IMG/VR virus record: IMGVR_UViG_3300023174_000068
Span: 62,001-126,000 of that record
Direction: 5' to 3' (one strand)
DNA length: 64,000 nt
Source of the DNA: a virus
Shown here: piece after piece, positions 7,256 to 64,000 of the stretch
Layout of the letters: each line of letters begins with the position of its first letter
Position numbering within the stretch: position 1 is the stretch's first letter
Notes under the pieces: model-generated
The model's input: only the letters and a program-made list of their open reading frames with translations
What the model was told of the DNA's origin: nothing
Databases searched by the model: none
Translations under genes and position numbers: made by a program

Positions 7256-8227
7256 CTAACTCTCAGATACTGCTTCTCGGAGTTTTCCTATTACACTCAT
7301 CGCCAGAACTATTGGGTCTAATGAAGTTTCGATTTTTGGATGATATTCAGAGACAATAAAATTACACTGGAATAGTTTATCTATTTTGACACCTCTTTCA
7401 ATAGCATGGTCTATAAAAGGCTTTCCTAAAATATTTAACATATCGTCAATTTTTTCTGGTCCAAATTTTGAGTTAACAAAATGGTATATTTTTTCGTAAT
7501 CGTTTTGATTGTCGAATATGGCCGAGAATAACTCTTCTTTTAATCGGTTTGACACGCTGGTGCCCAAAGAATCTTGGTGCCCAGTTGTCAAGAAATCCTG
7601 TAAGTGAACTAATGTTTTTCTTAAATCTGGGAAGTTTTTTTTAACAATATTGACAATGTCCTGTTTTGGTAAAGTTTTATTTTCATCTAGTAGTATAACA
7701 TCTCTTATTCTTAAAAAAATTTGTTGTTGAATATATTTTTCTTCTTCGACATTGAGACAATCAAAATTAATCTGAGGAATTCTGGACTTTATACCATCGG
7801 AAATCTTATGAATGTGATTAGTAGTTATTATAAATCGAACATTTTTATTGTATTTCTCGATGAAGGCCTTAAAGGCATCTTGAAACTGAGCGGATACTCT
7901 TTCAAACTCATCTAAAAAAACATATTTCATATCTGATTCAGCGTCCATAATAGAAGAGAACTTGCAAAAATCGTCAATTTTATTTCTTAAAACATCTATT
8001 GATGTAAATAGTGAAGAATTTAACTCAAGATGTGGTTTACTTTTATCATACTTACCAATAAGAATTCGAGCTAAAGTCGTTTTACCAGTACCATAGTGGC
8101 CATAAAATATAAAATTATTCGGCACGCCGTTTGTGAAATACTCACGAATTCTTGGCAACAAAACCATATCGTCTAACGTTTTTGGTCGCCATTTTTCCCA
8201 TAAAAGTAACTGGTTTACTGAACTCAT
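7256..8227 (-). CDS. Clamp loader large subunit (gp44-like AAA+ ATPase)
   Basis: Walker A is FYGHYGTGKTT, Walker B YVFLDEFERV, sensor 1 FIITTN and the arginine finger region GIKSRIPQ, all in clamp-loader order. It opens the sliding clamp (43565-44341) onto primed DNA for the polymerase. I place the start at 8227 (MSSVNQLLLWEKWRPKTLDD) rather than at 8242. The five extra codons fall in the GTATATAAAC promoter-like element, and relatives begin just before the W-E-K-W-R-P motif. The small clamp-loader subunit (gp62) is not recognisable nearby. Confidence 0.9.
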   Translation of the reverse strand: MSSVNQLLLWEKWRPKTLDDMVLLPRIREYFTNGVPNNFIFYGHYGTGKTTLARILIGKYDKSKPHLELNSSLFTSIDVLRNKIDDFCKFSSIMDAESDMKYVFLDEFERVSAQFQDAFKAFIEKYNKNVRFIITTNHIHKISDGIKSRIPQINFDCLNVEEEKYIQQQIFLRIRDVILLDENKTLPKQDIVNIVKKNFPDLRKTLVHLQDFLTTGHQDSLGTSVSNRLKEELFSAIFDNQNDYEKIYHFVNSKFGPEKIDDMLNILGKPFIDHAIERGVKIDKLFQCNFIVSEYHPKIETSLDPIVLAMSVIGKLREAVSES

Positions 8228-8293
8228 AATGTTTATATACAAATAAATTACAAAAGTTAAATTTAGAAGACCTCTGAAATTATATATAGTTCA

Positions 8294-9325
8294 ATGATTG
8301 GTGAAAGGTTTAATTTTGAAGATGTTTTTTTTAGAGACCTTACTGTTTGTGTATTGGACACTTTTGAAGGTCAAATAAAATGGGTGAATCGATTCAGCTC
8401 AGGTGATGTAAATGTGAACGTGCCTTTTTACTACTCTTTGACAGGTGATGAGAGGTTTTTACTAGACTCATTTAGCGATGATATTGTATCTGAAAATCGT
8501 TTTGTTGAATTAAACACTGATATTATTCCAAGAGGCCATTTGACGATGACAGGATTTAATATAAGATCAGATGAATTTGCAAATCCGAATGTCTGGCTAA
8601 GAATGGTAGTGGAAAACGAAATCGAAATTAGAAAAATTTTAGCCAGAGTTAGAAGTATTCCTATAACTGTAAATTACGACTTAACTGTGTTATTGTCGTC
8701 TGAAGTAGACACTTTCAAATGTTCTCAAGCTATCATGGACACACTTTGGATGTATAAATATATGTATTTTGAATACAATTTTATGAATATAGACGCCATG
8801 ATACTGATGCCGGATACAAATACTATTCAGATATCTCGCGAGAAAAATCTGACGTCGGATAATTCAATAACACTTAAAGTTTCTTTTGAAGTACACACTT
8901 ACTACCCAGCAATGAGAAAAGACAGAATCAACTCAGAGGGTTACACAAGAACATATGGTGATGGATCTACGTTTGAAGGAACAAATGGTGAGCCACCGGC
9001 TTTTTTCCCAGTTGGTCAATATCCAATAAACGATGGTTCACTTCAGCCCCCGTTTGTTCAGCCACCATTTCCACCAATTACAGGAGCCACGGGTGCAAAT
9101 GTTAACATACCCCCAGTTTTTCCAGAAGAATTTCCAAAAAAGAAACAAAATCCGAGTCTTTTTAATGATCCTGATTATTTCATGATAGCACCTAAAAGAA
9201 CAAAGTGGTTCAATAATATTCTACAAGCCAGAGAAAAAAATGCTAGGTTGAATAATATCAATGCTGGTAGTAATCCATCTCCTCCAAAAGGAGGCTCGAA
9301 CCGACCAACAAATCCAAATTCATAA
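8294..9325 (+). CDS. Virion structural protein, tail-associated (T4-like)
   Basis: The first 220 residues are beta-rich. They contain IPITVNYDLTVLLSSEVDTF and WMYKYMYFEYNFMNIDAMI, a pattern seen in T4-like tail completion/sheath-associated proteins, where a small domain describes a self-assembling ring. The C-terminal 120 residues are Pro/Gly/Asn rich (LQPPFVQPPFPPITGATGA) and probably unstructured. The exact T4 counterpart is uncertain. Expression is likely late, with TTATATATAG directly before the ATG. Confidence 0.5.
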   Translation: MIGERFNFEDVFFRDLTVCVLDTFEGQIKWVNRFSSGDVNVNVPFYYSLTGDERFLLDSFSDDIVSENRFVELNTDIIPRGHLTMTGFNIRSDEFANPNVWLRMVVENEIEIRKILARVRSIPITVNYDLTVLLSSEVDTFKCSQAIMDTLWMYKYMYFEYNFMNIDAMILMPDTNTIQISREKNLTSDNSITLKVSFEVHTYYPAMRKDRINSEGYTRTYGDGSTFEGTNGEPPAFFPVGQYPINDGSLQPPFVQPPFPPITGATGANVNIPPVFPEEFPKKKQNPSLFNDPDYFMIAPKRTKWFNNILQAREKNARLNNINAGSNPSPPKGGSNRPTNPNS

Positions 9326-9407
9326 GTTTACCAGCAGGAAAAAAGAAAAAATTGACTTTTAATTAATAATATATAGAGTATTAAACTAAAAAATATTTTA
9401 AAAAAAT

Positions 9408-15434: not shown

Positions 15435-16382
15435 TTATATTCTTTCACCAGTTACTGGATCATAATTTAGAATCAGTAGTTCGACTCCTTTTTCGGCTTT
15501 GCCTTTTGACTCATGATTATTCCCACCGTTTGCGGAACTTCTATTAACTTCCTTTTCAAACCAAAGATATTTATCTTTCGGTAATAACTCTTCTAAGAGT
15601 GGGAAATAATAGTATGATAATGACCATCTACTTTCAATACCTTTAATCAATTCTAAAAGTCTTCTGTGTGAGGCAGGTCCAAATACACCTTCTGCATCAG
15701 ACCCATACCAGAAAAGCCTCTTAGCATCGTCTTCGCCCTTTGATTCGTCAAATCTAGCATAAGGAGGGTCTAAATAAATGTAAGTTTCTGGGCTATCCCA
15801 TTTTAAGATTAGTTCTTGAAAATCAATATTGTTGAACTCGGTGATAGATTGTAGTTTCTGTGTATATTTATTTTTCTTTAATTTAGATATTAAAGATTCT
15901 AATTTAAGTTTATCCGTATCTTTTTTATACCCAGTAAATCCACCGCCTCGTGGATAGACACTGGAAAAACTTGAAGTGATAAGAAATGCGTAAATTGCAG
16001 CTCTTTTAAAGTCACCCATTTCAAAGTCATTGTTGTCTAAAAAATCATTGTCTACATACTTTCTATAGATAGATTTATAGAAATCCCATTTTTTTTGGGG
16101 ATCCGTTTCGGTTGTATTAAGAATTGTTTGTTTCAATTTTTCCAGAACATATAAAAACTTTTCCGGTTCAGCGCAACACTTCATTAGATTGACTTGGTGT
16201 CTATTTTTATCGTTATAAACCACATTTTCAAAATTTAATGTATCATCGTCCATGTAGGTAGCAAAAGAACCCGAAAACGGCTCGAGGTAATTTTTGACAC
16301 CTATTTTGGGTATTTTTTTGTTAATGAAGTCAATAAAAACGGAAGAACTCTTTCCTCCAAAATAAGAAATAACAGCGCACAT
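15435..16382 (-). CDS. dam: DNA adenine N6-methyltransferase (Dam/D12 class)
   Basis: Motif I is ISYFGGKSSS at the N-terminus, followed by LEPFSGSFA. The catalytic motif IV is YIYLDPPYARFD, as in D12-class adenine methylases such as T4 Dam. The 315-residue length is slightly longer than T4 Dam (259), with extra helices before motif IV. It transfers methyl groups from SAM to adenine in phage DNA, commonly as protection from host restriction. The target site cannot be read from the sequence. Confidence 0.88.
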   Translation of the reverse strand: MCAVISYFGGKSSSVFIDFINKKIPKIGVKNYLEPFSGSFATYMDDDTLNFENVVYNDKNRHQVNLMKCCAEPEKFLYVLEKLKQTILNTTETDPQKKWDFYKSIYRKYVDNDFLDNNDFEMGDFKRAAIYAFLITSSFSSVYPRGGGFTGYKKDTDKLKLESLISKLKKNKYTQKLQSITEFNNIDFQELILKWDSPETYIYLDPPYARFDESKGEDDAKRLFWYGSDAEGVFGPASHRRLLELIKGIESRWSLSYYYFPLLEELLPKDKYLWFEKEVNRSSANGGNNHESKGKAEKGVELLILNYDPVTGERI

Positions 16383-16460
16383 TTTATTTAAATTTAGTTA
16401 AGGTTTATTTTATATTCTAAAAATTAATATTGTTTCTTTTTTTGAGTAGACCACAATTTG

Positions 16461-16961
16461 CTACAACTGGTCTTCTAGTGAGGGTCTTGTTTTTTTAATC
16501 AGTTCTAATCTAACTTTCATTAAAATTTTACCTAAATTATTCTCACCACTGTTGCCGCATTTTAGGCAATTACAATTTCCCCAAAAATTATCATGCCACC
16601 AGTTTTCTTCGACTAGTTCAAAACCACCAGTGTCAATTAGTTGTTGGGCTAAAGATTCATCAGAGAACTTTTGTGTTATTGCTAAATTCATAAAATCTAA
16701 TTTTTTTTCACCCCAATCTGTTCGGAGTTTGACTCTTTGTCCTATTTTTTTAACATCTTGGGCTAGTGGAATTTTTGAAATAAGTTCTCGTAAATCCGGA
16801 GCAGTGTAGTATTTTCCATCTATAAATTGCAGGGTGTTTACTTTTAGGGCAACATAGAAGTGCTCTACAGATGGGTAAATGATTCCTTGGTGTTCTATTT
16901 TACACGGGTAGAAATTAGAAAGAAAGTAATATCGACCTTGAAATTTCGTTATCTTTGACAT
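16461..16961 (-). CDS. NADAR-family protein (YbiA/RibX-like)
   Basis: The hallmarks are YYFLSNFYPC near the N-terminus, YPSVEHFYVALK and WWHDNFWGNCNCLKCG, then NNLGKILMKVR at the end. NADAR proteins are N-glycosidases acting on riboflavin intermediates or ADP-ribosyl groups and are frequent in NAD/ADP-ribose conflict systems. The start at 16961 (MSKITKFQG) is preferred over 17033 because the upstream codons lie in the tmRNA terminator and an AATATATAAT promoter-like element. Its position next to the tmRNA gene and the isochorismatase-like gene elsewhere suggest a role in NAD-linked host conflict (inference). Confidence 0.85.
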   Translation of the reverse strand: MSKITKFQGRYYFLSNFYPCKIEHQGIIYPSVEHFYVALKVNTLQFIDGKYYTAPDLRELISKIPLAQDVKKIGQRVKLRTDWGEKKLDFMNLAITQKFSDESLAQQLIDTGGFELVEENWWHDNFWGNCNCLKCGNSGENNLGKILMKVRLELIKKTRPSLEDQL

Positions 16962-16984
16962 ATAGATTATATATTGTAAAAAGT

Positions 16985-17009
16985 AAAAGTCCACTCTAAG
17001 TGGACTTTT
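16985..17009 (-). terminator. Rho-independent terminator of the tmRNA gene
   Basis: Perfect hairpin AAAAGTCCACT / AGTGGACTTTT with a 3-nt loop, beginning 4 nt after the CCA end of the tmRNA. Confidence 0.9.
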
Positions 17010-17013
17010 CAAT

Positions 17014-17380
17014 TGGTGGAGATGACGTTGCACTGCCCAACGTGTCTTCTTTAGTTGATAATAACTATTCGTTCACAAGCTTAGTCACTTTTTCTAAAGT
17101 GGCAAAATAGATGGTTTTTTTGAAAAAACTTCTAAAAACTAACAAAAACCGGTTCCAAATTTACTGTCTGGTTCAGTTGTAGATTTTTTACAATTAAGCA
17201 AATTGTAGCTCTTCTACTTTGAGCAGGTTGTTTTGTAGGGCCGCTACTAAATCTTCACGAGTTCCTACTTGATTTGTGTTGCCATTTACGACAGTGTTAT
17301 CTAATTTATTAGTCGGATATTTAACAAGCCGACACTTGCATAAAAACCACCACACTACGAATCTATTCTATGACATCCCC
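17014..17380 (-). ncRNA. ssrA: tmRNA (transfer-messenger RNA)
   Basis: Reading the minus strand, the 5' end GGGGATG (17380-17374) pairs with CATCTCC (17024-17018) in a 7-bp acceptor stem followed by A-CCA. The pairing contains G3-U70, the alanine identity element. The 3' third has GTGACTAAGCTTGTGAA, matching the conserved GACTAAGCATGTAG of bacterial tmRNA. The total of 367 nt is normal. An open tag frame runs from GTA at 17289 to TAA at 17194 (31 codons, ending ELQFA), preceded by ACTGTC like the E. coli TAGTC before the resume codon. Odd points: the tag is about three times the usual length, and the T-arm loop is GGCAGTG rather than TTCRANY. The upstream element GATATATAAATT could be a phage promoter. 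Confidence 0.88.
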
Positions 17381-17428
17381 AAATGTGTTTCAATTTATAT
17401 ATCATATATTACAAACCAAAAAAAGTTG

Positions 17429-17983
17429 TTAAAAAGGAAGTCTGCTAGAATTGCTTTCATCACCTATATAGAATTCAAAAACAAGAACCCCGGTAGAAGC
17501 ACTTTGCCAAATATCAAAATCACACTCGTATTCAGATAGAACATCTTTTTTAAGTTTGTTAGCCACATCTAAAGCCGAAATAACGGCTTTAAGCGTTGTC
17601 GTTTTTGGCAAATGGCATTCTATAATAATTTCTTCGTGTTTTTTTGATGTCACTCTGACGTCTTTTAATCCGGCGTTTCTAAACATTTGTCTAAGTAGTG
17701 AGTGTAGGTTTTCTAAATCGTCTTTGTCATCTTCTTCGTAATCTGAGTAATCGTCGTAATCGTTATCTGAATTAAACTTAGGATTGGAAGATTTACCTAA
17801 TTTCTCAAAATCGCTCTCATCATACCAATCATCGTAGTAACCATAATCTTTTGTAGAATCGTCTTCATAATCATACCCACCTTTGTCATTTTGGTTATTA
17901 GCAGGTAGATCATCGTTTAAGTGACTCAGGTCATCTTTTCGAATAGCCTCTTTAATAAATGTATTAAATTGTTTAATTTTCAT
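17429..17983 (-). CDS. Putative internal head protein
   Basis: The N-terminus MKIKQFNTFIKEAIRK is the closest match in the window to the T4 capsid-targeting sequence, with a predicted prohead-protease site IKE|A. Residues 25-95 are acidic and Tyr/Asp rich, and residues 95-184 look folded (LRQMFRNAGLKDVRV then HEEIIIECHLP). No enzymatic motif is recognised. It follows the metallopeptidase gene with a 1-nt overlap. Confidence 0.6.
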   Translation of the reverse strand: MKIKQFNTFIKEAIRKDDLSHLNDDLPANNQNDKGGYDYEDDSTKDYGYYDDWYDESDFEKLGKSSNPKFNSDNDYDDYSDYEEDDKDDLENLHSLLRQMFRNAGLKDVRVTSKKHEEIIIECHLPKTTTLKAVISALDVANKLKKDVLSEYECDFDIWQSASTGVLVFEFYIGDESNSSRLPF

Positions 17984-43564: not shown

Positions 43565-44341
43565 ATGTCCCAAAAAAATATAAATTTCAAATTTAAGTCT
43601 GATAAAGTTTCGGAATTTATCCAGAAAATTGATGAACTTTCTAAGATTGAAGATACCATCAAAATAAAAATCGACTCCGAAAATATACTGATGTATTCTA
43701 TTTTGGGAGGTAATGTAATGTTAGCATTTAAAAATTTTTTACTCAAAACAGGCGACTATTTTGATTTTGAGGATTTTGATTTTACTATAGATTTTATCTT
43801 AGCCAGTTCTAAAAAATTTGTCAAAAATTTGAGTTTTCTAAATACTTCTCACACAGTACTTTGGGATTTTAATTATAAAAAATCAACCGAAAACGACGAT
43901 ATTGTCTGGGTTAGGTCGGTTCAAGTAAGTGGTGGAAAACTTAAAGTAAAGTGGTTAGGTGGAGAACATTATGAATTAAGAGATATAAACAAAGATTCTC
44001 TTAAAAATAACTTAAATATCAAAAATAAAAAGTGGTCTTTCTCCATTAAAAAAGAAGACTTTTTAGACGTAAAAAAACTATCTAACATAAATTCAGAAAG
44101 AATCGTAAATATAACAATTGAATCTGGGAAAGTCATACTTTCTGAAAAATCAGCATGGGAACTTGAAGTTCAATCTATTGACAGTTCGATTTCATCTAAT
44201 TTAATGCTAAATAAAAAGTTTCTATCGTGTATCGATGAGAACAAAGATGTTGAATTTAATATTTTTGAAAACTTCATGTTAATTCAAGATGAAAACTCAA
44301 ATCTAATGCTGTCGTTTGAGCAAAGTTTTGACGACGACTGA
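43565..44341 (+). CDS. Sliding clamp (gp45-like)
   Basis: This 258-residue beta/alpha protein has DNA-clamp style internal repetition: two halves, each with a helix followed by strands (FIQKIDELSKIEDTIKIKID in the first; SIKKEDFLDVKKLSNI and VNITIESGKVILSEK in the second). It ends ENFMLIQDENSNLMLSFEQS, comparable to the last strands of gp45. The immediate neighbours are DNA polymerase fragments, and the clamp loader is at 7256-8227. T4 gp45 has 228 residues. Assigned on pattern plus context. Confidence 0.7.
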   Translation: MSQKNINFKFKSDKVSEFIQKIDELSKIEDTIKIKIDSENILMYSILGGNVMLAFKNFLLKTGDYFDFEDFDFTIDFILASSKKFVKNLSFLNTSHTVLWDFNYKKSTENDDIVWVRSVQVSGGKLKVKWLGGEHYELRDINKDSLKNNLNIKNKKWSFSIKKEDFLDVKKLSNINSERIVNITIESGKVILSEKSAWELEVQSIDSSISSNLMLNKKFLSCIDENKDVEFNIFENFMLIQDENSNLMLSFEQSFDDD

Positions 44342-44385
44342 CGCCTGATTTTAAAACAATACCTCTAAATTTTAATATCACAGAT

Positions 44386-44493
44386 ATGACAAAAGGAGAA
44401 AAAATTCAAAAAATTGAGTCATTAAAAAAACAAGCAAGCGAGTTGAAGAAAGAAGTAGACTACTACAACGCTCTTCAGCTCGCTCTGTTTTGA
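44386..44493 (+). CDS. DNA polymerase fragment ending just before motif B
   Basis: This 35-codon ORF (MTKGEKIQKIESLKKQ...YYNALQLAL-F) is B-family polymerase sequence from the finger helices. The polymerase-like frame actually extends upstream to about 44338 (TPDFKTIPLNFNITD), overlapping the clamp stop without any start codon. The ORF ends in TTT TGA at 44488-44493, directly before a hairpin. The next codons of the polymerase (K-L-V-L-N-G-S-Y-G) resume at 44531. It is either a remnant or the take-off side of a bypass. The exonuclease domain and motif A are not in the window. Confidence 0.6.
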   Translation: MTKGEKIQKIESLKKQASELKKEVDYYNALQLALF

Positions 44494-44519
44494 CCCCCTC
44501 TTAATTATTTGAGAGGGGG
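44494..44519 (+). other. Strong hairpin inside the polymerase coding region
   Basis: CCCCCTCT pairs with AGAGGGGG. The stem extends by T-G, A-T and A-T to 11 bp around a 4-nt loop. It starts directly after the TGA that ends the upstream polymerase fragment. No T-run follows, so it is a poor intrinsic terminator. It looks more like a translational bypass or processing structure. Confidence 0.75.
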
Positions 44520-44530
44520 TAGACACGCTA

Positions 44531-45139
44531 AAATTAGTATTAAACGGTTCGTATGGGGCATTTGCTACATCCTACTTTATACTCTATAATAACCACGTAG
44601 CAGGAACCATTACAGCCCAAGGTAGAGATTTAACCAGAACAATGGATAAAGTTAATGAAGAGTTTTGGTATAATCAGTGGCATAAAGACATCGAACTACA
44701 TCAACAAATATCAATTAAAGACGTAACTCAAATTTCAAAAGATGAATCTGTGAGTATCTACGCTGATACTGATAGTTGCCATAAAGATTCTTTAATAAGA
44801 ACGGATAGTGGTAATTTCACAATAGAGAATTGGTATAATAGAAATATAAAAAACGGGTCTGGTGGTGAAACTTCCAAAGGACATGAATCTGTTTTAACTG
44901 ATGATAAAATTTTAAATTTTTCAGAAAATGAAAATCTATATTACGCATCTGTTAAAAGAATTATAAGACACAAGGTATCTAAAGATAAATGGAAATTGAA
45001 AACAAAATCAGGAAAGGAAATCATTGTGACTAATGATCACTCAATGATAGTTTTTAGAAATGGTAAAAAAATAGAAGTAAAACCATCTGAAATAATTGAA
45101 AGTGACAAAATACTAGTTTTGAAAACTAATATATACTGA
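44531..45139 (+). CDS. DNA polymerase (gp43-like), motif B to motif C, fused to a split-intein N-half
   Basis: From 44531 the frame reads KLVLNGSYGAFAT (motif B) and runs to SIYADTDS (motif C with catalytic aspartates). An intein begins at C (codon 44777-44779): CHKDSLIRTDSGNFTIENWY, then block B KEIIVTNDHSMIVF, ending LVLKTNIY at the stop. The N-half is 120 residues. The first ATG is at 44642, which would leave out motif B. The frame is open from 44513 without a start codon, so expression of the complete piece requires readthrough from the upstream fragment. Residues KWKLKTKSGK precede block B, as in canonical split inteins. Confidence 0.82.
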   Translation, partial: KLVLNGSYGAFATSYFILYNNHVAGTITAQGRDLTRTMDKVNEEFWYNQWHKDIELHQQISIKDVTQISKDESVSIYADTDSCHKDSLIRTDSGNFTIENWYNRNIKNGSGGETSKGHESVLTDDKILNFSENENLYYASVKRIIRHKVSKDKWKLKTKSGKEIIVTNDHSMIVFRNGKKIEVKPSEIIESDKILVLKTNIY

Positions 45140-45157
45140 TAAAAGTATCTGTATAAG

Positions 45158-46258
45158 ATGGAACTAAATAAAGAGTTTATTGAGTGGTTTAATAAAAATA
45201 AAACAAAAGATGAGTATAGAAAAATAATACTTAAATACTTTAAAGAATCTCTATATTGTAGAATATGTGAAGATGTAATTTACTATTACGATTCTTCTTT
45301 TATTTTTGGTAAAAATGGTTTGAAATTAAAGGGTAAGTCATTTGAGACATCTAAAGGTATAGATAAAGTATATTACTTGTCAATTTGTGAGGATTGTTTA
45401 TCTAAAAAATATCCAGAATATCAAGATAAAAATAAATCTAGAGTATTTAATCAGATGAATTATTTAACTGAATATGCCTTTGATATAGATCATGAAATTG
45501 CTGTAAAATGGGTGAAAGAAAAATATGCAATCACCGAGACCAATTTAATAAAAAAATGGGGAGAAGAATCAGGGAAGGAAAGATGGAAAAATTATCTCCA
45601 AAAACAGTCTTTTTCTAATACATTTGAGTATAAAAAAGAAAAGTATGGATGGGATGAAGAAAAATTCAAAGAGTATAATAAGTCAAGATCTGTAACATTA
45701 GAAAATCTTATAAATAGACATGGTGAGGATATTGGACTAAATATTTGGAAAAGATATTGCGACAAACAAAAGTATTCGACATCTGTGGAATACTTTATTG
45801 GAAAGTATGGAACATCAAAAGGAATAGAAATATATGAGAATTTCTGTAAAAAAAGATTACATGGCGCTGGGTATTCTATTGTATCAAAAGAATTATTTGA
45901 TTGTGTTTTGAATAGAATTCCAAACTTTAAAGCATATTATGCTGATAACGAGTGGTATTATTACGATAAAGAAAATAAGAAATATTACTTGATAGATTTC
46001 TACATAAAGGAATTAAATGTGGGTATTGAATTTCAAGGTGATATTTGGCATGCTAATCCTAAAAAATATAAACCAAATGATAAACCATATCCTTTCCAGA
46101 AGGACTTAATGGCTAAAGAAATATGGGAAAAGGATAGAATCAAGAATGATTTTTTAAAAACTAAATTGAATAAATTGATTATAATTTGGGAATCCGATCT
46201 TTATAAGGAAGGAATAGAACAAACAGTTAATAAAATAATTAAAGAAATTAATGAATAA
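45158..46258 (+). CDS. EDxHD (VSR-like) homing endonuclease of the fractured polymerase gene
   Basis: The C-terminal catalytic part has YLIDFYIKELNVGIEFQGDIWHANP, i.e. D, E, D and W-H in the arrangement of the EDxHD/very-short-patch-repair family (type I-Bth0305I). It ends with IIIWESDLYKEG. The N-terminal part has a CxxC pair (CRICEDV, SICEDCL) and two or three repeats around LIKKWGEESGKERWKNY / LINRHGEDIGLNIWKRY / FIGKYGTSKGIEIYENF, typical DNA-recognition repeats. It starts 18 nt after the N-intein stop and overlaps the C-intein start by 8 nt (ATGAATAA). This is exactly the known layout of fractured genes. Confidence 0.88.
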   Translation: MELNKEFIEWFNKNKTKDEYRKIILKYFKESLYCRICEDVIYYYDSSFIFGKNGLKLKGKSFETSKGIDKVYYLSICEDCLSKKYPEYQDKNKSRVFNQMNYLTEYAFDIDHEIAVKWVKEKYAITETNLIKKWGEESGKERWKNYLQKQSFSNTFEYKKEKYGWDEEKFKEYNKSRSVTLENLINRHGEDIGLNIWKRYCDKQKYSTSVEYFIGKYGTSKGIEIYENFCKKRLHGAGYSIVSKELFDCVLNRIPNFKAYYADNEWYYYDKENKKYYLIDFYIKELNVGIEFQGDIWHANPKKYKPNDKPYPFQKDLMAKEIWEKDRIKNDFLKTKLNKLIIIWESDLYKEGIEQTVNKIIKEINE

Positions 46259-47480
46259 GTTAGAATATTTTTTAGATGATATAGAATCATGTGAATTGGT
46301 AGGGGAATTTAATGATGAATATGTTTATGATGTTGAGATTGATGATGATACACACACATTTATAGCAAATGATATATTGGTTCATAATTCTCTTTTTGTT
46401 TCTTTTAAACCCGCAGTTGACCACTGTGAGTGGAAAAATCTTATTTTTAATAATCACTACTTAAACTCAGTAAAAGAAAGGTTTATTATATTGACCAAAG
46501 ACCAAAATTTGAAATGTCAAAATACAAACTGCATTGGAATTGCAAATGACATACACACTCTTAAAAATTTATTATCAAATGATTATGAATTACTACTATT
46601 TGATGGTAGCTTTGTAAAAGACAGAGGTCTTAATAGCTTAAAAGATGATGGAGCATTTACTTCTGAAATAAAATGGAATTGGTCAACTGAACAGGACTTA
46701 ATTCACGGTATTGACCATTTTAGATTTGGCCAATACTTCAAAGATTGCTTAGAAGCCTACGCCAATTCATTTGGAGTTGAAAATAAAGAAGATTTTGAAC
46801 TAGAAAGAATATCGGAATCTATTATAAATATCGCAAAAAAGAAGTATATCTGCCATATTATCTTTGAAGATGGAATTTCTTTTGAAAGACTATCTTACCT
46901 CTATCCAAAAGGCGTCGAATTGGTAAGGTCATCAACTCCGGCTTTTGCTCGAGAAAAAATTGTAGGAATTGTCAAATATCTGTTTGAGCATCCAGACACC
47001 TTTAATATCAAAGACTTACTGAAACTAGTAAAGTCTCTTAGAAAAGAATTCGAATTAGCAGACATCGATGACATAGCGATGCAGTCGTCCTGCTCTAATT
47101 ACGAATTCAAAGTCTTACAAGATAAATCCCTCCCCTTACAATTTGTTTCCGGAGCGCACTTTGCTGTAAAATCGGCCGCTCACTACAACTATCTCCTAAA
47201 TAAAAATAAAGACTGGCAGCAAAAATACGAGTTTATTAAATCAGGAACAAAGATTAAATATTATGTTTGTAGAGACAAATCTATTACCGATATGTTTGCT
47301 TACATTAGGGGTTCTTTTCCAATAGAGTTTGCACCAGAGATAGACTATGACACGCAGTTCGAAAAGTCAATTCTCTCGCCAATAAATTCTATTATTGAGC
47401 CACTTGGTATGCCTGAAATCACAAAGAGGCTATCTGTAGTTATGGACATATTTTCAGGATTTGGCAAGACTGGTTTTTAG
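46251..47480 (+). CDS. Split-intein C-half fused to DNA polymerase C-terminus (gp43-like)
   Basis: Residues 1-46 are a canonical C-intein: YVYDVEIDDDTHTFIANDILVHN with block F (D-D-x-H-x-F) and terminal His-Asn. Ser47 is the +1 nucleophile. The extein resumes SLFVSFKPAV, the strand after the YADTDS motif, so trans-splicing rebuilds motif C. The palm/thumb follows (KKKYICHIIFED, then YPKGVELVRSSTPAF, the KG-x-E-x-x-R-S motif). The end VVMDIFSGFGKTGF resembles the clamp-binding tail of T4 gp43. Translation is coupled to the endonuclease by the ATGAATAA overlap. Confidence 0.88.
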   Translation: MNKLEYFLDDIESCELVGEFNDEYVYDVEIDDDTHTFIANDILVHNSLFVSFKPAVDHCEWKNLIFNNHYLNSVKERFIILTKDQNLKCQNTNCIGIANDIHTLKNLLSNDYELLLFDGSFVKDRGLNSLKDDGAFTSEIKWNWSTEQDLIHGIDHFRFGQYFKDCLEAYANSFGVENKEDFELERISESIINIAKKKYICHIIFEDGISFERLSYLYPKGVELVRSSTPAFAREKIVGIVKYLFEHPDTFNIKDLLKLVKSLRKEFELADIDDIAMQSSCSNYEFKVLQDKSLPLQFVSGAHFAVKSAAHYNYLLNKNKDWQQKYEFIKSGTKIKYYVCRDKSITDMFAYIRGSFPIEFAPEIDYDTQFEKSILSPINSIIEPLGMPEITKRLSVVMDIFSGFGKTGF

Positions 47481-51905: not shown

Positions 51906-53198
51906 ATGAAATGTTCCTCTTTTGTTGATTTTGAAACAGCTCTATCCATTGTGAGGGGGTTGAATATTAACAGCGTTTCAGAATGGAGAAAATGGATAAA
52001 AGAAAATAAAGATAAAAAAATACCTTATAACCCTGATATCATTTATAAAAATAATGGATGGGTAAATTTTAAACATTTCTTCGGAACTTTCACACTAAAA
52101 AGAAAAAAATTTTTTACCTTTGAGGAATGTAAATGGTTTTTAAAACATTTATCATTTAAAAATCACAAAGAATTTATAATTTGGATTAAAAAAAATAAAG
52201 ATAAAGGCGTGCCATCTAACCCGGAAATAATTTACAAAGATAAATGGATTTCCTGGGGTGATTTTTTATCAAATAATAATATAAGCAATTCTAAAAAAAT
52301 ATTTTTAGAATTTTTAGAGTGTAAAAATTATTTATCAAATTTACAACTAACTGGTTATAAATCATTTATGAGATGGTATGACATAGAAAAACCAAATCAT
52401 ATACCAAATAATCCAAATATCGTTTATAAAGATAAATGGATTTCCTGGGGTGATTTCTTATCAACTGGTAACGTGAGCAATTCGGATAAAATATTTTTAA
52501 ACTATGAAGATTGTAAAAAAATTGTTGTCGACAAAAAAATAAATTCTATTAATAAGTTTATGAGATGGAAAGACAAACCTAAAAATATACCATCTAAACC
52601 AAATATAACTTATAAAAATAGAGGATGGACTACTTGGTCTGATTTTTTAGAAAGTTTAGTAATTTCAAACAAAGATAAAGGTCAAAAATATCTAAACTAC
52701 GAAGATGCTAAAAATTATTTAAAAAAACTAGATTTAACTCACAAATTAGACTATATTGATTATATTGTAAATCACAATATAGATTTTCTTCCGAAAAGAC
52801 CCGATTATATCTATAAAAAAGATTGGAAAGGATATTTAGATTATCTGAACTGTGTTGGTTTAAGGTCTTCTTATGGGGAAATAAAAATCAAAGAGTTTTT
52901 AGACGAAAAAAATATAAAATATGAGAGAGAAAAAAAATTCGAGTCTTGTGTAAATAAAAATAATAACAAACTACCCTTTGATTTCTATTTAAATGACTAT
53001 AACATCTGTATAGAATACGATGGTCAACATCATTTCCAAATCGTATCAAAGTATGGGGGAGAAGACTTCTTTAAAAAGGTGCAAGATCATGATGTTATAA
53101 AAACCAAATGGTGCCTAGAAAACAACATCAAGTTAATTAGAATGCCATATAAAAAGAAGAATAAAATATTTAAAATTTTAAGTACCGAAATTAATTAG
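51906..53198 (+). CDS. Homing endonuclease with integrase-type repeats and EDxHD-like nuclease
   Basis: Residues 1-300 contain five repeats of about 55 residues ending in motifs such as VYKDKWISWGDFLS, the phage-integrase repeat (INT_rpt) used for DNA recognition. Residues 310-430 carry LPFDFYLNDYNICIEYDGQHHF, DVIKTKWCLENNIKLIRMPY, the E-x-D-G-x-x-H core of the VSR/DUF559 nuclease group. It is divergent from the primase gene, whose start is 35 nt away, and looks like an inserted free-standing homing endonuclease. Confidence 0.82.
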   Translation: MKCSSFVDFETALSIVRGLNINSVSEWRKWIKENKDKKIPYNPDIIYKNNGWVNFKHFFGTFTLKRKKFFTFEECKWFLKHLSFKNHKEFIIWIKKNKDKGVPSNPEIIYKDKWISWGDFLSNNNISNSKKIFLEFLECKNYLSNLQLTGYKSFMRWYDIEKPNHIPNNPNIVYKDKWISWGDFLSTGNVSNSDKIFLNYEDCKKIVVDKKINSINKFMRWKDKPKNIPSKPNITYKNRGWTTWSDFLESLVISNKDKGQKYLNYEDAKNYLKKLDLTHKLDYIDYIVNHNIDFLPKRPDYIYKKDWKGYLDYLNCVGLRSSYGEIKIKEFLDEKNIKYEREKKFESCVNKNNNKLPFDFYLNDYNICIEYDGQHHFQIVSKYGGEDFFKKVQDHDVIKTKWCLENNIKLIRMPYKKKNKIFKILSTEIN

Positions 53199-61696: not shown

Positions 61697-64000
61697 ATGG
61701 GTAAATTCATTAATTCTCTATCTGCCGAGCAAAAAAATAACATCAATGTTATTATTACAACCGCGCTTAAATCAGGTATAACTAATCCTATAAGTATAGC
61801 AGGTGCTTTGGCAATCGTTTCAAAAGAATCTGCGTTTATTCCAAAAAATGAAAATCTAAATTACTCAGCAAAGCGACTTCAGAAAGTTTTTGGCATAAGC
61901 GCCGAAACAGCTTCACAAATAGCGGGTAATCCTAAAGCAATAGGTGATGCTATTTATGGAGGTAAATACGGAAATGCCTCAAATGAGGGTTATAAATACC
62001 GCGGTAGAGGATTAAACCAGCTCACTTTTAAGGGAAACTATGAAAAGTATAAAAGTTTGATAGGACAAGACATCGTATCAGATCCCGAAATAGTTAATAA
62101 CATATCAACTGCTGCAAAGATTCTTATCGAATATAATAAGAGTAATATAAATGGCTTAAAAAAATCCGGCAAACTCTCATCTTATGGCGCAACTGATATA
62201 AATGGGTTCAAAGATACTAAAAACGCAGTCTTTGCCTTTTACCACGTTACAGCAGGATCGGGACTCAGCGTGGATAAAATAAAAAACCTCGAACACAACG
62301 ATAATCTAGGTGGAATGACAAAAGCATTGGCTCGTGTTGATGAGCTTTATGACTACGTTAAAAAATTCGACCCAAATTCCTTTGCTAACTCGATTCAAGA
62401 AAACCCACCACAGTCCGGATTAAGTCCTAATGAATCGCAACAAACATCAGATGAACAAACGGCCACTCCTACACCACCACCGCCTCCAGATCCAAAGTTA
62501 GATGGTCAAATAACATTAGAAAAAGTATCAGGACCTGGAAACTTGATGGGTCAAATAACATCAGAAGTAGTCTTTGGACAAATCACTTTTTCTGATATTC
62601 AATTTGATGAACCCGGAACTTATGTGCTCAGAGCCATCCCAACTAATTCAAATGTTGAAACCTTGGAATTCACAGTTTTAGTTTCACCCAATGATAATCC
62701 AAAATCAACTGAAAAACCAGTTGAAGAGGTGCAGGGAAAAAGGTCTATAATTACACAAATAGATCCAGTAAGGCTAAAAATATCACCAATCACGTTTCCG
62801 GTTCAAACAACAGCAGAACCAGAAAACGCTGAAGTTCTTTCACAAATAGGCTTAACACCGTTTGTTTGGTATAATGGATTTCAAATTAAAGAATCTTCAT
62901 TAAAAAAGCTACAAATTTTTTACTATGAATTTGTTCCTTGCTGTTTGGTTAAATTCTCAGATTTATTAGGCATAATTGCAAAACAGGGTATGCCACTATC
63001 TGATGCCACTTTTGATGTCTTTTTAAATTCCAACAGTTCAGTATTAAAATCGATACATCTAAGATTTAAAATTTTAGACTTTCAACAAAATCCAGACAAG
63101 AGTTATACTATGACTGGAATACTTGACTTAAAAAACTTTTATAAAGTCAATTATAAATCCTACAAAGGAACATCATTTGAAGTAATGAGAAAAATCGCAG
63201 AAGAACTAGAACTAGGGTTCAACTCAAACATTGACAATACTTCGGATTCAATGACCTGGATTAATACCGGAGCAAAGTATAAAGATTTTTTAAATCAAAT
63301 AATAAAACATTCATATATTGGCGATACCTCTTTTATCCAAGCTTATATAGACTTTTATTACGGACTTAATTTAGTTGACTTAGAAAAAGAATGGAACAGA
63401 GATTGTAATAATGACTTAGGGATAACCACAGGTGGCTTAACAATTGCGGATGGAAATAAGAAGGATGAAAAATCAAATTTAGCCCCATTAATACTTATAA
63501 ATGATTTATCACTTCATTATTCAAATTGTTATTTTGAAAACTACAGAGTTCAAAATAACGCAACAAATAAATCGGTCTCCTCTGGTCAATTTACTACTAC
63601 TAAATACTATGACATTGGAACAAAACAGTTTTTGATTTTCGATATTGATTCAGCGACAACTCAGAGCAATGATAAGGTTATACTTAAGGGCAAACCTACA
63701 GATTCAGAAGACTTGAAAACAAATTACACAACTGTTTTTGGAGGCAAAGTAGATTTATCAAACGTGCATAAAAATTACCTATATGCAGAAGTTTTAAATA
63801 ACAGAAACTTGATTGACCTAAGTAAGATTGTTGTGACTTTTGAGATGCCAAATCCAAATTTTAATCTTTATAAATTTCAAAAAGTAAGGATCCAATTTAT
63901 CAATCCTGCACCATCAATTATTGAAGAGGATTTCAATCAAAAAAGAATCAGCGGTGATTGGATGATAATTGATATTGCTTTTCTTTGGAACGGAAAAAGG
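61697..64000 (+). CDS. Tail lysozyme fused to baseplate hub protein (cut by window edge)
   Basis: The open frame starts at ATG 61697 and runs 768 codons to the right edge without a stop. Residues 1-225 are a GH19-like lysozyme: AGALAIVSKESAFIPKNENL (catalytic Glu), LNYSAKRLQKVFG, GYKYRGRGLNQLTFKGNY and NAVFAFYHVTAG. A Pro/Thr-rich linker and a small beta domain follow. From about residue 350 there is a hub-type region with WINTGAKYKDFLNQIIKHSY and NPNFNLYKFQKVRIQF, similar to gp27-like baseplate hub proteins. It combines the roles of T4 gp5 and gp27. A GTAATATATAAAA element lies about 46 nt upstream. Confidence 0.8.
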   Translation, partial: MGKFINSLSAEQKNNINVIITTALKSGITNPISIAGALAIVSKESAFIPKNENLNYSAKRLQKVFGISAETASQIAGNPKAIGDAIYGGKYGNASNEGYKYRGRGLNQLTFKGNYEKYKSLIGQDIVSDPEIVNNISTAAKILIEYNKSNINGLKKSGKLSSYGATDINGFKDTKNAVFAFYHVTAGSGLSVDKIKNLEHNDNLGGMTKALARVDELYDYVKKFDPNSFANSIQENPPQSGLSPNESQQTSDEQTATPTPPPPPDPKLDGQITLEKVSGPGNLMGQITSEVVFGQITFSDIQFDEPGTYVLRAIPTNSNVETLEFTVLVSPNDNPKSTEKPVEEVQGKRSIITQIDPVRLKISPITFPVQTTAEPENAEVLSQIGLTPFVWYNGFQIKESSLKKLQIFYYEFVPCCLVKFSDLLGIIAKQGMPLSDATFDVFLNSNSSVLKSIHLRFKILDFQQNPDKSYTMTGILDLKNFYKVNYKSYKGTSFEVMRKIAEELELGFNSNIDNTSDSMTWINTGAKYKDFLNQIIKHSYIGDTSFIQAYIDFYYGLNLVDLEKEWNRDCNNDLGITTGGLTIADGNKKDEKSNLAPLILINDLSLHYSNCYFENYRVQNNATNKSVSSGQFTTTKYYDIGTKQFLIFDIDSATTQSNDKVILKGKPTDSEDLKTNYTTVFGGKVDLSNVHKNYLYAEVLNNRNLIDLSKIVVTFEMPNPNFNLYKFQKVRIQFINPAPSIIEEDFNQKRISGDWMIIDIAFLWNGKR

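Follow-up and report, generated by a model that had tools for sequence, protein, structure and literature searches.

A candidate mobile bypassing gap at motif B of a two-gene phage DNA polymerase

Bacteriophage T4 gene 60 is so far the one well-established case of translational bypassing in bacteria and phages; reviews describe it as apparently unique (PMC3014915) or list beside it just unproven candidates (PMC5009743). Its described signals comprise a 5′ stem-loop, a take-off stem-loop, a nascent peptide and an internal Shine-Dalgarno sequence (PMC5009743, PMC11194080), and its ribosomes slide processively over as many as 56 nt (PMC11194080). In the mitochondria of Magnusiomyces capitatus, take-off and landing codons of the byp elements are not always perfectly matched (PMC5009743). 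For phage polymerases, we found no earlier report of bypassing in the open-access literature. Here, we describe a 64,000-nt stretch of viral DNA (hereafter the window; positions 62001–126000 of the 131,438-bp, possibly incomplete virus record IMGVR_UViG_3300023174_000068), in which the DNA polymerase gene 43B is broken by a 43-nt gap just before motif B. Judged from its sequence and by analogy with T4, this gap probably undergoes programmed translational bypassing of the gene 60 type.

The gap at motif B and its likeness to T4 gene 60

The gap is a second break in 43B, about 240 nt upstream of an intein, and it disrupts the reading frame. The features concerned are (window coordinates):

44386–44487, plus strand: 43B segment 1, ATG to take-off CTG, 34 codons (MTKGEKIQ...NALQLAL), a fingers helix; assigned from the uninterrupted homologues L089 and L090
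44437–44484, plus strand: 5′ stem-loop with a 13-bp stem, within the coding sequence, ending right before the take-off codon
44485–44487, plus strand: proposed take-off codon CTG (Leu34)
44488–44530, plus strand: gap of 43 nt (length modulo 3 of 1) with TGA at 44491–44493; assigned by comparison with uninterrupted homologues
44493–44520, plus strand: gap hairpin of 12 bp, ACCCCCTCTTAA-TTAT-TTGAGAGGGGGT
44528–44530, plus strand: proposed landing codon CTA, the last three bases of the gap
44531–44773, plus strand: 43B segment 2 (N-extein), motif B KLVLNGSYGAFA through YADTD

Beyond the gap, motif B continues in another frame. The first in-frame start codon of segment 2 lies at 44642, past motif B, and none occurs between the gap and that position; motif B is therefore not makeable by ordinary translation. 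A first-pass annotation of the window had taken the region upstream of 44642 as absent. It is present, with the gap at motif B, and the gene starts at the ATG at 44386. We found no second hairpin like that of the gap in the 131-kb contig, and no such hairpin in an open reading context elsewhere across the ~54 loci scanned; pattern scans of IMG/VR returned, beyond the polymerase, just terminator-like or unrelated matches. The contig contains no tRNA genes that we could find, so a phage tRNA cannot explain landing.

By analogy with T4 gene 60, the ribosome would stall at CTG34 with the gap hairpin, which starts five bases beyond take-off, occupying the A site, while the upstream coding stem-loop would refold behind the ribosome and push it forward. 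The Leu-peptidyl-tRNA would then release its codon, slide about 40 nt and re-pair at CTA, seven bases past the G-rich hairpin strand, which can serve as an internal Shine-Dalgarno site. Translation would restart at AAA (KLVLNGSYG), and the joined peptide would read ...QLALKLVLNGSYG..., linking NALQLAL to KLVLNGSYG.

With T4 gene 60, the locus shares a stable gap hairpin, a 5′ coding stem-loop, matched codons and, in looser form, a stop soon after take-off, as well as a G-rich, Shine-Dalgarno-like run some 6 nt ahead of the landing codon. Among relatives, it also shares an endonuclease gene upstream (mobA in T4) and gap lengths within the processive sliding range of T4; the host gene, too, is itself split in two (39/60 in T4, 43A/43B here). 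The systems differ in that a DNA polymerase rather than a topoisomerase is affected, and that 29 distinct gaps at five sites stand against one. Leu, Ala, Val, Gly and Tyr codons are used here, usually with one sense codon between take-off and stop, the hairpin follows a 5-nt spacer, there is no KKYK peptide, and gaps at the Tyr site lack codon matching. The byp elements of M. capitatus likewise are many short bypassed inserts in essential genes, but they are mitochondrial, number 81 and appear context-independent, whereas here one phage gene is hit, with structured flanks and a linked endonuclease.

Matched codons and a synonymous stem-loop across related loci

We compared the window with 53 related loci, collected by protein-based scans and pattern searches of IMG/VR and complemented with phage records. 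The set consists mostly of metagenomic records, and its alleles are related or exchanging. Thirty of the 54 loci carry a gap at motif B (29 distinct gaps) and 24 do not. The gaps measure 36–48 nt and fall at five sites within 10 codons, namely after Ala33, Leu34, Val37, Gly40 and Tyr42; at the level of sequence, they separate two open reading frame (ORF) parts of one protein. A GC-rich hairpin, mostly of 10–12 bp, is present in all 29 distinct gaps, usually starting five bases past the take-off codon and mostly ending 5–7 nt before the landing codon. A stop occurs at the first or second codon in 26/29, mostly at the second, unlike in T4. All three frame remainders are represented, and stop-codon readthrough was rejected because most gaps shift the frame. 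Motif B is ungapped in phage PTm1, in LR756500 and in other distant polymerases. A blastn search of INPHARED did not recover the gap element from cultured or annotated phages, and bacterial and archaeal genome contigs yielded no relatives.

That the gap merely inactivates the gene, through mutation, decay or faulty assembly, might be suspected from the metagenomic origin of the sequences, from the stop codon and frameshift, and from a pair of alleles (L136 and L137) set apart by a single G in the hairpin run. This is extremely improbable: the same gapped allele turned up more than once among records assembled separately (L011 and L012; L117 and L140; L132, L133, L143 and L149), one architecture is common to 29 different sequences, and purifying selection acts on the codons between the gap and the first ATG (pN/pS 0.10–0.18). 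Moreover, the contig yielded no other polymerase, and the gapped 43B is likewise all that the 177-kb contig of L108 contains.

Alternatively, two polypeptides could be made, with a 34-aa peptide ending at TGA and a downstream restart that uses the G-rich hairpin strand as its ribosome binding site. The G-run does sit at Shine-Dalgarno distance, an ATG directly follows the hairpin in several Leu-site alleles, though out of frame, and precedent for split polymerases exists among T4-like phages (PMC2988022). We nevertheless regard a restart as very improbable, given that the first usable in-frame start lies 17–38 codons past the gap, beyond motif B, in most alleles, and that those codons are strongly conserved. 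In L011, a TAA immediately precedes the resume codon, and a restart would select for neither codon matching nor a 5′ stem-loop.

Both of these features are pronounced. At the Ala, Leu, Val and Gly sites, the landing codon equals the take-off codon in its first two bases in 21/21 gaps, as compared to a background of 3.2% at other gap positions; the two codons are fully identical in five of the 21, and the window pairs CTG with CTA. The Ala-site gaps of L110 and L114 contain one extra GCA codon relative to the Leu-site gap of L096, implying that the codon match follows the site.

The coding stem-loop ends at the take-off codon in most Leu-, Ala- and Val-site alleles. In L009, it falls one base short, and its stem has shifted along with the gap site; the stem thus tracks the take-off register. 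At the Leu site, the helix abutting the take-off codon averages 8.3 bp (14 alleles) versus 0.8 bp in 2000 synonymous recodings (maximum 2.7), while it is 0–1 bp long in 20 of 21 ungapped alleles and 5 bp in the remaining one. Ungapped alleles encode nearly the same residues, but with non-pairing codons: the stem-loop arises from synonymous codon choice. Folding energies over the 75 nt before take-off agree (−17.8 kcal/mol for gapped versus −7.8 kcal/mol for ungapped alleles, p = 4e-8; −24.1 for the window allele versus −9.2 for its sister L100), and among 12 phylogenetically independent pairs from the Leu, Ala and Val sites, 11–12 agree and none disagrees. The ungapped sister of gapped L136, L109, retains a partial 5′ stem, possibly reflecting a recent gap loss. 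At residue 12 of 43B (about 44419–44421 in the window), a serine is found in 23/29 gapped versus 0/19 ungapped alleles; it may be a nascent-peptide signal or a hitch-hiking marker, both being possible.

Could the codon match instead be a target-site duplication left by insertion, with the stem-loop serving mRNA stability or evasion of an endonuclease? The gaps are clearly mobile (see below), and a synonymous change at the cut site alone would protect against an endonuclease. Yet the stem follows the take-off register, the frames would still need some joining device, and Leu-site gaps land on CTA after take-off from CTT or CTG, so that the two codons are not exact duplicates. This explanation is, in our judgement, highly improbable.

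The eight Tyr-site gaps (L011 5794–5829, L107, L108, L113, L116, L122, L129 and L150) resume at GGA or GGT, and the codon before (TAA, AAC, AGC, CAA or GAC) is unmatched to Tyr. Codon re-pairing does not account for these gaps. Around the hairpin, the flanking codons of some of these alleles are able to pair with each other. According to the title of Herr et al. 2004, as given in the reference list of PMC3014915, landing can succeed with minimal pairing.

Mobility of the gaps and upstream homing endonucleases

Immediately upstream of 43B, a homing endonuclease gene is present in 18/30 gapped but 0/24 ungapped loci (p = 1e-6). These genes include members matching PHROG homing endonuclease families, and L217 encodes a GIY-YIG-like gene at the same position; endonuclease subfamily and gap site showed no clean correspondence. 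Mapped onto a tree built from the polymerase C-terminus, presence of the gap requires at least 13 changes and clusters no more strongly than shuffled labels. L114 and L116 have identical C-terminal proteins and gaps at different sites. Ungapped L106 and gapped L108 are about 95% identical, except for 74–83% from the 43B start to the gap, and just upstream L108 carries an 860-nt insertion with an endonuclease gene (L108 5073–5936). In the window, no endonuclease gene directly precedes 43B; a likely sliding clamp gene is found there instead, and the endonuclease gene may have been lost or never acquired.

The idea of a mobA/gap cassette in T4 reportedly goes back to Bonocora and colleagues in 2011. 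A protective role of the T4 gap against the endonuclease is mentioned in PMC5009743. In the present lineage, the gap is probably kept since it destroys the target of the endonuclease encoded upstream of 43B in related phages, and endonuclease and gap would move together as a cassette.

Several observations weigh against bypassing as a full account. At the Tyr site, a two-base match is seen in 2/8 gaps only, and neither a matching landing codon nor an abutting 5′ stem-loop is present, so one mechanism may not cover all gaps. The Gly-site allele also lacks an abutting stem, the base of the stem is mismatched in 2/14 Leu-site alleles, three alleles have no early stop, and the KKYK peptide signal of T4 was not seen in gapped alleles. 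Codon matching could be a relic of gap insertion. The endonuclease association falls to p of about 0.03 in independent pairs, and because the alleles are related or exchanged, the raw counts overstate independence.

In a further explanation, the gap behaves like a very small intron: the RNA is cut on either side of the hairpin and rejoined, and translation is then ordinary. Excision would serve all five sites alike, including the Tyr site with its unmatched codons, where flanking exons can pair in some alleles. We consider it very unlikely: neither a group I nor a group II intron would fit into 36–48 nt with one hairpin, an Rfam search returned nothing credible, the RNA ligase family PF09414 was not found in the contig, and excision needs neither a matched landing codon nor a stem-loop ending exactly at take-off.

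Programmed bypassing remains our preferred reading of the window's gap. The broader proposition, that homing endonucleases and bypassed gaps co-travel in this large-phage lineage and have repeatedly settled at polymerase motif B, is one we think probable; it would involve two mechanistic classes, namely matched-codon re-pairing behind a 5′ stem-loop and Tyr-site landing that does without codon matching. If true, programmed bypassing is no T4 oddity, but a recurrent mobile device. About 30 natural variants that differ in codons, hairpins and positions, together with gapless sister alleles, form a ready comparative set for testing bypass signals. The variants lend support to the view that immunity against homing endonucleases keeps bypass gaps in place, and they show that a stop codon within a phage polymerase gene is not necessarily the mark of a pseudogene.

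Polymerase gene layout and the split intein

The remaining features of the locus are:

43565–44341, plus strand: likely sliding clamp gene, from its ORF and neighbour comparison; identified by resemblance, with no family match
44774–45136, plus strand: N-intein, 121 aa, Ser1, TNDH block, stop at 45137 (PF14890, E 6e-11, and relatives)
45158–46258, plus strand: EDxHD/VSR-like putative homing endonuclease, 366 aa (conserved IEFxGDxxHxNP)
46251–46388, plus strand: C-intein, 46 aa, ending ANDILVHN (homologues in L009 and L010; contiguous in L145)
46389–47480, plus strand: 43B segment 3 (C-extein), SLFVSF to the polymerase C-terminus (PHROG 262/1918)

ORF and family searches placed the polymerase, both intein halves and the endonuclease ORF where the first-pass annotation had them. 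The ORF at 44642–45139 matches Pfam Intein_splicing (PF14890, E 6e-11) and a PHROG DNA polymerase family, 46251–47480 matches DNA polymerase families (E about 1e-34), and a whole-contig search located both intein halves here (record positions 106909–107268 and 108200–108388). The break does lie at YADTDS, but the N-intein comprises 121 aa from Ser (44774) instead of 120 from Cys, since the residue after DTDS varies in relatives (C, V or I). The predicted spliced product, YADTD-SLFVSF, is identical to the uninterrupted sequence in relatives.

That annotation had also supposed the enzyme to be built from several pieces, and the missing N-terminal half indeed turned up outside the window as a separate gene, 43A (exonuclease and motif A; 508 aa; record positions 16098–17624, minus strand), on the same contig as 43B, 89 kb away and on the opposite strand. 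We found neither an uninterrupted B-family polymerase gene nor a PolA or PolC polymerase in the 131-kb, possibly incomplete contig. The polymerase is hence a gp43-like enzyme encoded by two genes, 43A and 43B, the latter with two separate invasions, at motif C and motif B. A family B polymerase encoded by two genes is known from Aeromonas phages 25 and 44RR (43A/43B; PMC2988022), unlike here without the 89-kb distance and opposite orientation, and PHROG places 43A-like and 43B-like proteins in distinct families, 2062 and 1918.

The intein and endonuclease arrangement is, by its sequence, of an already known kind. Fractured genes with split inteins and EDxHD/VSR-like endonucleases were described by Dassa et al. 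2009, as cited in PMC12350094, and the order seen here, N-extein–N-intein, endonuclease ORF, C-intein–C-extein at a catalytic motif, is the same; the differences, a Ser1 intein and a bypass gap about 240 nt upstream, concern details only. Intein halves with splicing blocks flank the broken extein, with the VSR-like endonuclease gene between them, and the halves should trans-splice. In the cultured Tenacibaculum phage PTm1, the same gene shows this order, the annotations reading split polymerase precursor, VSR endonuclease and polymerase. Relatives of the endonuclease and/or the intein are found in Prevotella Lak, Aeromonas, Campylobacter and Pseudomonas PA5oct-type phages. The mini-intein that L145 carries at this polymerase site is contiguous, and in L091 (LR756500) the intein halves at the site enclose a different endonuclease ORF, one with KYGV-type repeats; the split intein of L136 has no endonuclease gene between its halves.

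The predicted endonuclease structure is of moderate quality (predicted local distance difference test, pLDDT, 78; predicted template modelling score, pTM, 0.40). A fold search against the PDB placed VSR (1cw0, 1vsr) and AbaSI near the top (E 0.02–0.1), the VSR matches having a probability of 0.95–0.99 despite weak E values. Against a viral library, the model matched the VSR endonuclease of Aeromonas phage Aes123 (E 9e-20); a sequence search of the PDB gave no credible match. The sequence evidence, the VSR fold resemblance and the PTm1 arrangement are all consistent with the initial reading of a split intein with a VSR-like endonuclease, a reading that overlooked the more unusual gap at motif B.

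TerL had been proposed to be split likewise. Its ORF (189–2405) opens with a C-intein ending GILSHN, followed by TISSAIFM, which makes the proposal plausible from sequence (HN|T junction), but the Pfam intein model has no match there. Given this C-intein at its start, the N-terminal part of TerL is to be expected upstream of the window. Outside the window, a split intein interrupts another gene at record positions of about 7600–9400, minus strand (L004), with the extein ...VLIVDE|C ... HCVSN|CHDFDD... and an endonuclease-like ORF between its intein halves. Within the window, the ORF at 51906–53198 matches HNH/homing endonuclease PHROG families.

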